Shown: in pieces, positions 241 to 40,264 of the stretch
How positions within the stretch are numbered: position 1 is the stretch's first letter
How the letters are laid out: every line of letters starts with the position of its first letter
NCBI RefSeq assembly: GCF_016798225.1
Contig: NZ_JAEUYX010000003.1
Location: forward strand, 1 to 64,000
Length of the DNA stretch: 64,000 nt
Direction of reading: 5' to 3'
DNA from: Anaerococcus sp. mt242
Lineage (GTDB): Bacteria > Bacillota > Clostridia > Tissierellales > Peptoniphilaceae
Notes under the pieces: model-generated
Database searches by the model: none
Seen by the model: only the letters and a program-made list of their open reading frames with translations
Told to the model about the DNA's origin: nothing
Program-made: the position numbers and the translations under genes

Positions 241-287
241 GGGTATAGTAATTAATAATGATAATCAACGAAAAGAAAGGAATAATA

Positions 288-1985
288 ATGAAAATTACAA
301 TAGGAGATTATATTCTTAAAAGACTTAAAGAATTAAATATAAAACACATTATCGGGGAACCAGGTGACTTTAACTTAGAATTCCTTGAGCAAATTTCAGA
401 AGATAAAGACATAGAATTTGTAGGTATGTCTAATGAGTTAAATGCTGCATTTGCGGCCGATGGGTATGCAAATGAAAATGGAATTTCAGCTTTAATGACT
501 ACTTATAGTGTAGGGGACCTTAATGCTCTAGGTGGTATTGCAGGATCTGTTGCAGAACACAGACCAATTATAATTATTTCTGGTACTCCACCTCTATTTG
601 CAATGAGAGAAAGAAAAATGACCCACCACACATTAGCCGATGGAGATTATGAAAATGTTCGTCGTGCTATGAATGAATTTGTGGATGATTCTGTTTTAAT
701 TACTCACGAAAATGCAAGATATGAAATTGATAGGTTAATTGAAAGAGCCGTAACATACAGCAAGTCTGTAAATATTGAGCTACCTTCAAATATTGCTTAC
801 CTTGATATTAAAATCGAAGATGATTTAAAACCAATTGAGAAAAAGAAAACTAAATCTGATGATGAAAGGCTAGATGCAGCGGCTAAAAAAATTGCAGAGA
901 GATTTGTAAATGCTAAAAATCCAGTTGTTTTAATTGATGAAGCTGTTGATAGATATGATGTAGCTGACAAAGTGCTAGAATTAATCGAAAGATCCCAAGT
1001 ACCATTTGCAGTTCTTGCAACAGCAAAAGCATATTATAATGAATCTCATCCGTTATATTTAGGGATCTATCAAGGTGAAGAATCAGATAAGGGTGTTCAA
1101 GAAAAGGTTGAAAGCTCTGACTTTCTAATTTCAATTGAGCCAGTGTTTATGCAAGCAAATAATGGGGAATTTACATCAAAATTACCAGAAGATGCAATTA
1201 TTATCAATGCAGATTATACAAAAGTAGGCGAAGAAATCTTTGAAGCGGTTTATGTAAATGACTTAGTAGAACTTGGTCTACAAAACATTACACAAAGAGA
1301 AAAAATCGAAAGTGTAAATAAGACAAAAGAAAAAGAATACAAATTTGAAGCTGATAAACTAATTATGCAAGAAGATTTCTATGCACAAATTGCAAGATAC
1401 TTTAAAGAAAATGATGTTGTTTATGGAGAAACTGGTACAGCTAGTCATGGGCTTACAGAAATAAAAATTCCTGATGGAGTAAAACTTGTAAGAAGTCAAA
1501 TTTGGGGATCAATCGGAGCCATGCTTCCAATGCAAATGGGTGGTATGCTAGCAAGTCCAGAAAAACGCCACATACTATTAATAGGAGATGGTTCCTTCCA
1601 AGTAAGTGCTCAAGCCCTATCAAGAATGATTTATAATAAACAAAATCCAATTATTTTCCTAATCGATAACGACGGATACACAATTGAACGTTATATCATG
1701 GGCATGAAAAGAGATTATAACGATATACCAAAATGGGATTACTCATTACTTCCACAAGCATTCAGTAAGGGTCAATCAAATATGAAAACTGCTGAGGCAA
1801 GAACACAAGGAGAACTTGAAGAAATTTTAAAAACACTTGATGATGTAAATGAAGGAATAATAATCACTGTTTATATGCACCAAGAAGATTCACCAGAAGT
1901 AATGGTAGATTATGGTAAAAACAAAGAAGACTTTAACTTTGGTGAAAGAGGACCTAAAAACCCAGAACCAGACTTTAAAGCTTAA
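288..1985 (+). CDS. thiamine-diphosphate-dependent 2-oxoacid decarboxylase (pyruvate/indolepyruvate decarboxylase family)
   Basis: Non-oxidative decarboxylase of a 2-oxoacid to an aldehyde. All family landmarks are present: the catalytic glutamate in NELNAAF (E50), the active-site pair His113-His114 in THHT, the ThDP/Mg motif GDGS (433-436) closing with asparagine 461, and the GYTIE glutamate (E467). The three-domain length of 565 residues is typical. The ATG at 288 is preferred over the ATG at 258 because an AAAGGA ribosome site precedes it. Substrate (pyruvate, phenylpyruvate, indolepyruvate or branched-chain oxoacids) cannot be read from sequence. It stands alone, with its own promoter and terminator, next to an IS end, which would fit lateral acquisition. 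Such enzymes are uncommon in strict anaerobic cocci; that last point is general knowledge, not computed. Confidence 0.9.
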   Translation: MKITIGDYILKRLKELNIKHIIGEPGDFNLEFLEQISEDKDIEFVGMSNELNAAFAADGYANENGISALMTTYSVGDLNALGGIAGSVAEHRPIIIISGTPPLFAMRERKMTHHTLADGDYENVRRAMNEFVDDSVLITHENARYEIDRLIERAVTYSKSVNIELPSNIAYLDIKIEDDLKPIEKKKTKSDDERLDAAAKKIAERFVNAKNPVVLIDEAVDRYDVADKVLELIERSQVPFAVLATAKAYYNESHPLYLGIYQGEESDKGVQEKVESSDFLISIEPVFMQANNGEFTSKLPEDAIIINADYTKVGEEIFEAVYVNDLVELGLQNITQREKIESVNKTKEKEYKFEADKLIMQEDFYAQIARYFKENDVVYGETGTASHGLTEIKIPDGVKLVRSQIWGSIGAMLPMQMGGMLASPEKRHILLIGDGSFQVSAQALSRMIYNKQNPIIFLIDNDGYTIERYIMGMKRDYNDIPKWDYSLLPQAFSKGQSNMKTAEARTQGELEEILKTLDDVNEGIIITVYMHQEDSPEVMVDYGKNKEDFNFGERGPKNPEPDFKA

Positions 1986-2028: not shown

Positions 2029-2793
2029 TTAATTTAATTTATAAATTTTTTGTAAGCCGTAAAGTCCTAGATTTTCTATTATTTCAAAATTATAATTTTC
2101 TATATTTAAAATATCTACAAAAGGACCGGTAAGGATTATTTTTAACTTATCAACTTTTAATTTATTTTGGATGACTATTCTATCTATTATTCCATTTATA
2201 GAAAAATTATAAGAATGATAAATCCCGTTTTGTATTGCCTTTTTTGTAGAATTTCCTAAGACTTTATTACTTTTTAAAATTTCAACTTTTGGAAGCCTAG
2301 CGCTTTGTTCATTTAATGATTTTGCATATAAATCAATACCTGGTAAAATAACCCCGCCCAGAAATTGATTTTGGCTGTTGATAAAATCTATTGTGGTTAT
2401 AGTTGCTGCAGAGATTATTATTAAATCATTTTCAAAATTATTTACTCCGACAGCTCTAATTATCCTATCAGATCCAACATCTTTTGGATTTTCACATTTT
2501 ATGTTAAGACCGGTTTTAACGCCAGAAGAGATTAATATAGGTTTTTTTCCTGTAATATTTACAGCAATTTTTTCAAAAGTATATGCCATTTCTGGAACTA
2601 CTGTTGAAATTATAATATCATCAATATCTATAAAATAAATATTATATTCATTTAACATCAACTTAATTAAGAGATTAAGCTCATCTACGGTTTTATCTTG
2701 ATCGGTCTTAAAATTAAAATTTGCTATTAAACCTTCCTCATCAAATACCCCAAAACTAGTAAATTTATTATCTATGTCAATTGCAAGTAACAT
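2029..2793 (-). CDS. divergent CoaX-like (type III pantothenate kinase family) protein, probably inactive
   Basis: The 254-residue chain aligns end to end with the canonical CoaX at 39479-40264 (start MLLAIDI, DVGSDR at 105-110, LGGVILPGI, LPKVEI). Key motifs are lost, however. The phosphate-binding DxGNT is DIDNK (6-10), and the DMGTA motif holding the third acidic residue is SAATI (128-132). GADR survives as GSDR. Loss of the ATP/metal residues predicts no kinase activity. The gene directly follows the ECF transporter gene (start abuts its stop; GAGGAG ribosome site inside that gene's end), so a joint role in vitamin uptake or its control is likely. Baf of Bordetella is a precedent for a CoaX-family protein with a regulatory role. 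Function remains inferred. Confidence 0.75.
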   Translation of the reverse strand: MLLAIDIDNKFTSFGVFDEEGLIANFNFKTDQDKTVDELNLLIKLMLNEYNIYFIDIDDIIISTVVPEMAYTFEKIAVNITGKKPILISSGVKTGLNIKCENPKDVGSDRIIRAVGVNNFENDLIIISAATITTIDFINSQNQFLGGVILPGIDLYAKSLNEQSARLPKVEILKSNKVLGNSTKKAIQNGIYHSYNFSINGIIDRIVIQNKLKVDKLKIILTGPFVDILNIENYNFEIIENLGLYGLQKIYKLN

Positions 2794-3540
2794 TTATCTC
2801 CTCGCTTTTAAAACTGCTTTTATTACTCCACTTGTAATAATTATTGATAAAAATGCCTCTGGCAAACCGGATGTGATAGATACACCAAGTATGGCTGACC
2901 TGGCATTTTCTAATGGGATATTTAAAGCTTCTACATATTTTTGAGCATAAATTAAATATATCCCAGTTAAAACTAATATAGTATTAGTCATTGATCCGAC
3001 AAAGGCACCGATAGCTATAGGAAAATCTTTGGTTGCTGTTTTATTAGAATAATAAAATAGGCCTAAGCAAACTATAATTAAAATTATTACTAAAATAATA
3101 TTTACTTTTGAAGCCCCGTTTTTAATATTTTTGTACAAAATAAAAGCTAAAAATATCAAAAGTAAGGACCAAAGTATCTTTGATGCAGTTTTTAAATTTT
3201 TATCATCAAACTTCTTAACAGATGTGTAAGCATAATAAGAAGTAATTCCTATTAAAATACGCGGAATGACTGAAATCAGTGGATTGTAAAATACAAAAGA
3301 AATAGGTGTTGGCCTTATTACTGCATTTATCAGAGAAAAGACTCCAAAAATAAGTCCGACAAGTCCCCCAACAACAGGACCTTCTACAATTGCTGCAATA
3401 ATAACTGGAATATGCATTGTTGTTGCATTTATGATCCCTAAAGGAATAAGTCCAAGTGGGGTAAGTCCTAAAACAATAGTGATAGCACCAAGAACTGCAG
3501 CAGTAGTTAATTTTCTGCTGGATAGAGTTTTTTTATTCAT
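2794..3540 (-). CDS. ECF transporter S component, probable pantothenate or related vitamin uptake
   Basis: Membrane protein of the ECF substrate-binding family (PF12822-like), 248 residues. Hydrophobic segments fill most of the chain. The family signature is visible in the N-terminal half: a TTMHIPVI stretch near residue 40, then VEGPVVGGLVGLIFG and, further on, PLISVIPRILIG. S components bind a vitamin and dock onto a shared EcfT-EcfA energy module, which is not in this window. It heads a two-gene operon with the CoaX-like gene, which suggests pantothenate as substrate, as in known PanT-type proteins, but the substrate cannot be read from sequence. An insertion with additional hydrophobic helices in the middle (about 120-170) makes it longer than the usual 170-200 residues. 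Confidence 0.8.
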   Translation of the reverse strand: MNKKTLSSRKLTTAAVLGAITIVLGLTPLGLIPLGIINATTMHIPVIIAAIVEGPVVGGLVGLIFGVFSLINAVIRPTPISFVFYNPLISVIPRILIGITSYYAYTSVKKFDDKNLKTASKILWSLLLIFLAFILYKNIKNGASKVNIILVIILIIVCLGLFYYSNKTATKDFPIAIGAFVGSMTNTILVLTGIYLIYAQKYVEALNIPLENARSAILGVSITSGLPEAFLSIIITSGVIKAVLKARR

Positions 3541-3552
3541 TTTTGCCTCCTG

Positions 3553-3577
3553 ATACGGTTCGATATAGATACCGTTC
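3553..3577. promoter_or_regulatory. candidate operator before the ECF/CoaX-like operon
   Basis: Two near-identical 9-mers, ATACGGTTC (3553-3561) and ATACCGTTC (3569-3577), lie 16 bases apart. The same bases contain the inverted pair ACGGT/ACCGT. The site lies just downstream of the predicted promoter and close to the ribosome site. No regulator gene is adjacent. Confidence 0.4.
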
Positions 3578-39478: not shown

Positions 39479-40264
39479 ATGCTTCTAGTAGTAGATATTG
39501 GAAATACCAACACTGTGCTTGGTGTTTTTAACAATGGTAAATTAGAATTCAGATATAGAGTGGCTACAAATTTAAAACGCACCAGCGACGAATTGGTAGC
39601 TACCCTTTTTAATATGTTCATAATTCATGAGATTAAAAAAAATTGCATTGAAGATACCATAATTTCTTCAGTAGTTCCAGATATCATGTATGCATGGCAA
39701 TCGTGCAATAGAAAGATGTTTGGTAAAGATCCAATAATTATTGATTATAAAACCGATACTGGAATTATAAATGATTATGAATCACCAAAGGATGTTGGAG
39801 CTGACAGAATTGTAAATGCAGTTGCAACTTTTAACAAATACGGTGGTCCGGCGATAATTGTTGATATGGGTACAGCAATAACTTTTGATGTAATTACTAA
39901 AGAAGGAAAATACCTAGGTGGGTCGATAGCTCCAGGAATCCGAATTGCCCAAGATGGTCTTTTTGGAATGACTGCTCAATTACCAAAAATAGAACTTCGA
40001 AATCCAACAACAGCAATTGCAAGAACTACACCTGAAAGTATGAATGCAGGTATTGTGTATGGTTATATTTCGCTAATAGATGGAGTAATCGAACAAATAG
40101 AAAAAGATCTTGTAAATGATTATGAACTTTGTGGGAAAATAAATGTAATTGCAACTGGAGGATACTCAGAATTAATTGCTCATGAATCAAAATATATCGA
40201 ATATATAGAACCTGATCTAATGCTAGATGGGCTAAAAATTATTTATGACCGAATTAAAAAATAA
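39479..40264 (+). CDS. coaX: type III pantothenate kinase
   Basis: First step of coenzyme A synthesis. All CoaX motifs are intact: DIGNTNTVLG at the start, GADRIVNAV, the acidic VDMGTAITFD and LGGSIAPGI. 261 residues. Compare the degenerate paralogue at 2029-2793, which has lost the GNT and DMGTA motifs. It heads the coaX-dus-greA-lysS cluster known in Firmicutes. Dus overlaps its last 20 bases. Confidence 0.95.
   Translation: MLLVVDIGNTNTVLGVFNNGKLEFRYRVATNLKRTSDELVATLFNMFIIHEIKKNCIEDTIISSVVPDIMYAWQSCNRKMFGKDPIIIDYKTDTGIINDYESPKDVGADRIVNAVATFNKYGGPAIIVDMGTAITFDVITKEGKYLGGSIAPGIRIAQDGLFGMTAQLPKIELRNPTTAIARTTPESMNAGIVYGYISLIDGVIEQIEKDLVNDYELCGKINVIATGGYSELIAHESKYIEYIEPDLMLDGLKIIYDRIKK

Follow-up and report, generated by a model that had tools for sequence, protein, structure and literature searches.

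An RNA hairpin, a gene for a PanT-like importer component and a gene for a type III pantothenate kinase (PanK, CoaX) homologue without ATP-site motifs form a cassette in the window, that is, the whole 64,000-nucleotide stretch of Anaerococcus sp. mt242 DNA analysed here (assembly GCF_016798225.1, contig NZ_JAEUYX010000003.1, positions 1 to 64,000). Judged by its residues, this homologue, which we call motif-less CoaX, is a pseudokinase, and our comparison of its relatives indicates that it probably binds pantothenate or phosphopantothenate and regulates the importer operon. Many relatives have retained it together with the importer, and the hairpin stands in front of the pair, so that it probably senses the vitamin and does not process it. 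We favor, with moderate confidence, the reading that motif-less CoaX, in a cassette with the hairpin and PanT, acts as a broken-kinase sensor for the importer operon.

The locus and its gene products

The features of the window that concern us are listed below; read along the minus strand, the hairpin (3577-3552) comes first, then the Shine-Dalgarno sequence (3551-3546), the PanT-like S component (3540-2794) and motif-less CoaX (2793-2029).

2029 to 2793, minus strand: motif-less CoaX, a PanK III fold without ATP-site motifs (DIDNK, SAATI, TGP) but with GxDR kept
2794 to 3540, minus strand: PanT-like ECF S component (PF12822, PDB relatives 4rfs and 6zg3), with the pan-type hairpin in front
3546 to 3551, minus strand: PanT Shine-Dalgarno sequence AGGAGG, directly 3' of the hairpin
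3552 to 3577, minus strand: pan-motif-like RNA hairpin with two bulged A and five covarying core pairs
39479 to 40264, plus strand: canonical CoaX with DIGNT, GADR and DMGTA present

The motif-less CoaX has 254 amino acids and matches PF03309 with 174.9 bits (cut-off 24.7) over model positions 1-205 of 205, and the canonical CoaX matches it with 221.2 bits. At E 0.001 the genome has no other CoaX match (the assembly is 98.5% complete), and the canonical one is presumed to be the working pantothenate kinase; from their translations we take its neighbors to be tilS/hpt and dusB/greA/lysS. The PanT-like protein (248 amino acids) belongs to the ECF S-component family PF12822 (89.7 bits, cut-off 30.7), and its only PDB relatives at E <1e-6 are 4rfs (8e-11) and 6zg3 (4e-7), which we take to be ECF-PanT structures. 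NCBIfam gave just ThiT and FolT matches for it, both below threshold. From these matches it is presumed to be the substrate-binding subunit for pantothenate uptake. Its stop codon and the start of motif-less CoaX are directly adjacent with a spacer of 0, so the genes abut, as the preliminary description had said in placing the CoaX-like gene directly downstream of an ECF S component. Tail to tail with motif-less CoaX lies a thiamine-diphosphate enzyme gene (258-1985, plus strand), whose best NCBIfam match is indolepyruvate decarboxylase at 403 bits, far under the cut-off of 946.

Loss of the ATP-site motifs

It had been claimed that the CoaX-like protein lacks the DxGNT and DMGTA residues and that a canonical CoaX is encoded at 39479. 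Both statements hold: the former reads DIDNK and SAATI at these positions, and the latter has DIGNT, GADR and DMGTA. Two refinements can be made, namely, that the first Asp and the Asn of DxGNT and the Asp-Arg of GxDR are still present, and that the adenosine motif TGG is lost as well (TGP in the window). From 115 canonical CoaX rows, 49 from the family and 66 from named loci, with genome G039 in both, we took the 46 columns whose invariance reaches 95% or more. The 35 motif-less rows keep 32 of these columns in at least half of the rows and lose 14. Those lost are G8 and T10 of phosphate-1; D129, G131, T132 and A133 of phosphate-2; the further ATP-site positions G195 and G228, the latter within the adenosine TGG; R27 and D37; and, as mild changes, A108, V112, Y145 and I156. 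D129 is lost in all 35 copies, and Gly is not among the four commonest residues at G228. Invariant in all 35 are, among others, N9, E38, P103, G107, D109, R110, T135, G147, G148, I150, G153, T184 and G191. The GxDR/PGI core is thus kept while ATP-site residues go; the roles of the motif positions, including that of the GxDR Asp as the catalytic residue, are those that we take from PanK III structures. Compared with type III PanK (CoaX, PF03309), motif-less CoaX shares fold, length, the GxDR core and the PGI and AKLP segments but is without the phosphate-1, phosphate-2 and adenosine motifs and has K/R10 in 33/35. Since all three ATP motifs are lost, ATP binding of the usual kind would be impossible for it.

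Counting against a pure sensor is that the GxDR Asp (35/35), N9 (35/35) and the first Asp (26/35) are retained, which makes residual or altered catalysis possible. If the protein had kept an enzymatic activity but used another donor or catalyzed another reaction, say, as a phosphopantothenate phosphatase or as a kinase using a different phosphate donor, this would account for the first two of these residues and for a largely consistent new phosphate-1 loop, in which position 8 is D, E or N in 32/35 and position 10 is K or R in 33/35. However, the three nucleotide motifs were lost together and the replacement of phosphate-2 differs between genera, and we consider such an enzyme unlikely. Besides K/R10, the basic residues newly conserved in the motif-less copies are K44 (33/35), R/K113 (30/35) and K185 (27/35). 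The mean net charge is +0.8 in motif-less CoaX (n=35) versus -6.3 in canonical CoaX (n=48), and it is higher than that of the canonical copy of the same genome in 17 of the 17 genomes in which both were read; lysine drift in the faster-evolving protein could add to this shift.

Distribution, linkage to PanT and origin

CoaX was found in 128 and a PanT-like S component in 119 of the 130 genomes of the family sample (E 0.001). From these, 84 distinct CoaX proteins, a chosen subset, were read and 83 were classed and placed in a tree, G095 being dropped; a copy was called motif-less when GN[TS] was absent from its first 40 residues. This gave 35 motif-less copies, 25 canonical copies linked to PanT and 23 canonical unlinked copies. 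The motif-less copies, that of the window included, come from the Anaerococcus and Peptoniphilus lines, and PanT adjoins every one of the 35, with a gap of -29 to 18 nt that is 0 or 1 nt in 27. Conservation of the gene pair, the lack of which the preliminary description had named beforehand as one of two outcomes that would refute its proposal, was therefore found in all motif-less copies read. Among 80 named loci found with the motif-less alignment, 14 were motif-less and 66 canonical, and all 14 are titled Peptoniphilus or Anaerococcus.

A second CoaX match is present in 35/35 genomes with a motif-less copy, and it is canonical in the 17/17 where it was read. In contrast, each of the 25 canonical PanT-linked copies is the sole CoaX match of its genome; their operons have the same gene order, which also occurs in other Bacillota behind birA/bioY, but the CoaX in them is intact. 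Type III PanKs are dimers. Motif-less CoaX might heterodimerize with the canonical CoaX and tune its activity, and heteromeric type II enzymes with a degenerate partner are known from apicomplexan PanK1/PanK2 (PMC8366970). In those, too, a degenerate paralogue is kept beside another one, but they are type II enzymes and obligate heteromers. Heterodimerization would not call for the linkage to PanT in 35/35; a single motif-less clade stands beside two very different canonical clades, of the Anaerococcus and the Peptoniphilus lines; and the canonical partners that were read, with all their motifs present, should not depend on a helper. We give this explanation a low probability.

In the CoaX tree, rooted with a Bacilli outgroup, the 35 motif-less copies form one clade (support 100/100, recovered in all of 200 bootstrap trees) whose stem is long (0.54), and its sister (91/96) holds Peptoniphilus-line canonical CoaX, both linked and unlinked. 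By this tree, motif-less CoaX arose once, within the PanT-linked CoaX lineage. In the midpoint-rooted PanT tree a clade of 37 (99/94) includes all 35 PanTs linked to it. The two extra members are from G127, whose contig breaks off at this point, and from G069, in which the locus (L070) has a cassette-clade PanT with a hairpin and no motif-less CoaX or detectable remnant of it in the 4 kb read. In both trees the Anaerococcus copies are grouped with those of the Peptoniphilus harei group, yet canonical CoaX of Anaerococcus and of Peptoniphilus stand far apart, which suggests that PanT and motif-less CoaX were transferred together between the two genera. A second CoaX is present in 14 of 31 Anaerococcus genomes and absent from 17, and the three cassette-less Anaerococcus PanTs included in the PanT tree form their own clade.

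A class-wide search covered 391 genomes, with CoaX in 337. Possible second copies were inspected in 28 genomes, 7 from order and family searches and 21 from the class sample, the latter being all those outside the family with two CoaX matches; the motif check covered the copies of these 28 genomes, and a wider spread among single-copy CoaX is possible. Most full-length copies that were aligned retain the D.GN and D.GT motifs, and several other matches are split or broken genes. In G358 a PanT-like gene (L327, 1648-2343) is followed by a CoaX gene (685-1482, minus strand) with EIGNT, VFMGT and TGI, and the genome also has a canonical CoaX; this partial parallel is possibly an independent one. 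G258, G466, G484 and G533 have a partly degenerate CoaX and no S component within 1.5-kb flanks. The idea that motif-less CoaX serves auxotrophs alone was rejected: panC, although absent from the genome of the window, is present in 17 of 36 cassette genomes versus 19 of 94 others (Fisher p 0.004, uncorrected for kinship and with G127 counted as a cassette genome).

Selection and predicted fold

Pairwise dN/dS of motif-less CoaX was 0.06-0.19, as expected under purifying selection, in 16 pairs of which several share a genome and six have a dS >1 for this gene, where the estimate is rough. The values were 0.06-0.09 for canonical CoaX (the three pairs with finite values) and 0.02-0.15 for PanT, and the evolutionary rate of motif-less CoaX is above that of canonical CoaX and, for most pairs, also above that of PanT. 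The AlphaFold2 (AF2) model of the protein has a pLDDT of 92.9, and its best PDB match is the PanK III 3djc (Z 31.8, rmsd 1.6 over 251 residues), followed by the PanK III structures 2h3g (Z 29.9) and 9b78 (Z 29.4). The dN/dS values and the fold matches of the model together point to a protein that is intact and under selection but has a broken nucleotide site. The faster evolution also fits relaxed constraint, and one could suppose a slowly eroding relic that is kept by its position behind PanT, the more so as 17 of the 31 Anaerococcus genomes do without a second CoaX. That supposition we hold to be highly improbable: the reading frame is open over its full length (240-262 amino acids) in 35/35, dN/dS is low, GxDR and other core residues are invariant and the AF2 model is intact.

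The nearest precedent with a known function is the CoaX of mycobacteria, which is not a kinase; according to a review it enhances Dop depupylation of PanB in the absence of pantothenate, is inhibited in its presence, and is a trimer of dimers (PMC12288473). This protein (PDB 9b78 and 9cku), inactive as a PanK, has its fold in common with motif-less CoaX (Z 29.4) and is likewise degenerate where motif-less CoaX has lost G8, T132, A133 and G228. Unlike motif-less CoaX it keeps T10, D129 and G131, and its targets are Dop and PanB whereas motif-less CoaX is linked to an importer. Since motif-less CoaX falls among the family CoaX in a tree without mycobacterial CoaX, we take the likeness as parallel, apparently independent evolution.

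A pan-type hairpin at the PanT ribosome-binding site

The preliminary description did not include the hairpin, which was first found by reading the regions upstream of PanT. A repeated pattern, GA-N5-A-UC-loop-GA-N5'-A-UC, stands there just before the Shine-Dalgarno sequence, and the hairpin is two-fold symmetric in that each strand reads GA-N5-A-UC. It was seen in 57 of 66 PanT upstream regions and in 35/35 cassettes with motif-less CoaX read, although in G112 it was identified by eye and the top pick of the script was a different hairpin. Imperfect forms occur in G050, G065 and G068. In G058 the first half lies within the 60 scanned bases and the covariance model described below places the complete element 16 nt ahead of the PanT match. 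No acceptable hairpin was found upstream of PanT in G009, G044, G066, G072 and G127, the last being a cassette genome in which it is unrecognizable. The hairpin is also present in 18 of 25 canonical PanT-CoaX operons read and before PanT in 8 of 16 Anaerococcus genomes that have PanT and no second CoaX.

A loose hairpin score could not serve as a control, since 170 of 1320 shuffled upstream regions passed it, and covariation and a covariance model were used in its place. The covariation rows came from 50 of the 66 regions, the nine without a standard hairpin and seven others (G112 and the near-copies G023, G034 and G118-G121) being left out. Over the nine pairs and 49 distinct rows, 99.3% of cells are paired, a percentage inflated by picking rows for their hairpin look, which hardly affects double changes. 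Double changes occur in six pairs, a number reached by 6 of 500 shuffles; the covariation score of 0.445, compared with a shuffle mean of 0.173, was reached by none of 500, and sliding the partner strand abolishes the covariation. The folding energy is modestly better than that of shuffles (z -1.7 for 37 nt and -0.7 for 81 nt), with 10/200 and 50/200 shuffles, respectively, folding as well.

The best Rfam match to the window hairpin is RF01749, the pan motif; at 26.9 bits (E 0.012 in 401 nt) it falls short of the gathering score, which is 36.2. At the gathering threshold the window gives only a tRNA, and no hairpin is reported in the window or in ten family loci. The pan motif is defined as a stem interrupted by two conserved bulged A in the available text of its description (PMC2864571), and the window hairpin is such a stem. 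Both stand before pantothenate-related genes, with pantothenate taken as the likely substrate of PanT, but the pan motif is mostly in tandem whereas the family hairpin is a single copy that touches the importer ribosome-binding site and stays under the gathering score. A covariance model of the family elements (R1) gave one match in the window, the hairpin, with 36.8 bits, this element being among its training rows. In all, R1 has 80 matches in 79 of the 130 family genomes, a single one in 78 of the 79, and by coordinates 78 of the 80 lie just before PanT. The two exceptions are G066:C27:1608-1632 and G006:C10:53824-53849. It recovers 34/35 cassettes, the weak G113 element being seen in a smaller search only. 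Since R1 was built from 50 of these loci, it shows placement and single copy and is not an independent discovery. RF01749 could be widened, as Rfam gathering misses the Peptoniphilaceae form.

pan RNA and CoaX across Bacillota

In a phylum sample of 398 genomes, for which both draws were taken as the same set, RF01749 was found in 164 at E 0.01, in 138 of them above the gathering score, a count that is too low since the window's own genome is missed. PF03309 was found in 358 of the 398. When the lists were compared by hand, CoaX was present in 159 of 164 pan-positive versus 199 of 234 pan-negative genomes (Fisher p 6e-5, uncorrected for kinship). In a search that covered type III and type I kinases, the pan-positive, CoaX-negative genomes G714, G779, G637 and G873 show no type I kinase either. 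Their assemblies are in 90-180 contigs, and two of them are 97 and 99% complete; same-genus relatives of these two have CoaX. In the fifth exception, G942, the pan match is weak and the kinase match is partial. With PanT in other families meaning a PF12822 gene adjoining coaX, pan RNA was seen before birA-PanT-coaX (G694), before bioY-PanT-coaX (G626, and G994 by ORF likeness) and before a panC-birA-bioY-coaX cluster (G742); L322, L318, L321 and L323 are loci of other Bacillota where it lies ahead of these coaX operons. Neither the importer nor coaX is among the genes named in the available text of the 2010 description of the pan motif, which proposes that the motif binds a dimeric protein (PMC2864571). 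Our literature search gave no report of a pan-RNA-binding protein and none of a PanT-linked degenerate CoaX among the matches listed, subscription papers being mostly outside its scope.

These data raise the possibility that type III PanK is the missing dimeric reader of pan RNA. An ancestral CoaX linked to PanT would have acted as a kinase and would also have controlled the translation of its own operon in response to pantothenate. Duplication would then have left catalysis to the unlinked copy and regulation alone to the linked motif-less CoaX. In Bacillus subtilis a coaX mutant shows wild-type growth, coaA being present (PMC11487621). A two-fold symmetric hairpin is what a homodimer would need. 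Docking of the bulged A in the adenine pockets of CoaX was put aside, since the adenosine motif is lost in motif-less CoaX. We regard this history as quite unlikely.

Proposed role of the cassette

The cassette has three elements: a pan-type hairpin at the ribosome-binding site, PanT as the importer S component, and a CoaX whose nucleotide site is broken. By the tree and the motifs, motif-less CoaX would have originated in genomes where another CoaX does the phosphorylation. It would have lost the usual binding of ATP and kept the pantothenate-side core, and most likely binds either pantothenate or, through the new basic residues K/R10, R/K113 and K185, the phosphorylated product. The state of the ligand would then be reported to the importer operon, either by docking of motif-less CoaX on PanT or by an autogenous control in which the pan hairpin governs translation of PanT and motif-less CoaX. 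Since the hairpin also occurs in half of the cassette-less Anaerococcus genomes with PanT and in most canonical operons read, motif-less CoaX is not the sole RNA reader, and in cassette-less Anaerococcus the reader must be something else, canonical CoaX being one example. Also counting against the proposal are the hairpin without motif-less CoaX in G069 and the cassette without a recognizable hairpin in G127.

The preliminary description had proposed a dead PanK fold coupled to a vitamin importer as a sensor or regulator, similar in spirit to Baf. The broken ATP site and the pairing with PanT stand, and a sensor or regulator role fits the retained core, the lost ATP site, the purifying selection and the mycobacterial precedent. 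The comparison with Baf is weak, as Pfam at E up to 0.1 gives PF03309 alone and no DNA-binding domain.

To our knowledge, type III PanKs are not feedback-inhibited by CoA. Few control points of bacterial vitamin B5 synthesis are known, according to a review (PMC12288473). Motif-less CoaX is apparently a pseudokinase that evolved apart from the mycobacterial one and is tied to an importer and an orphan RNA. It bears on why organisms keep apparently non-functional PanK copies, an open question according to PMC8366970. With or without its motifs, CoaX is also a candidate answer to the question, posed in 2010 (PMC2864571), of which protein binds the pan motif. A dead kinase, an importer and an orphan RNA together would be a compact system for finding a pantothenate sensor.
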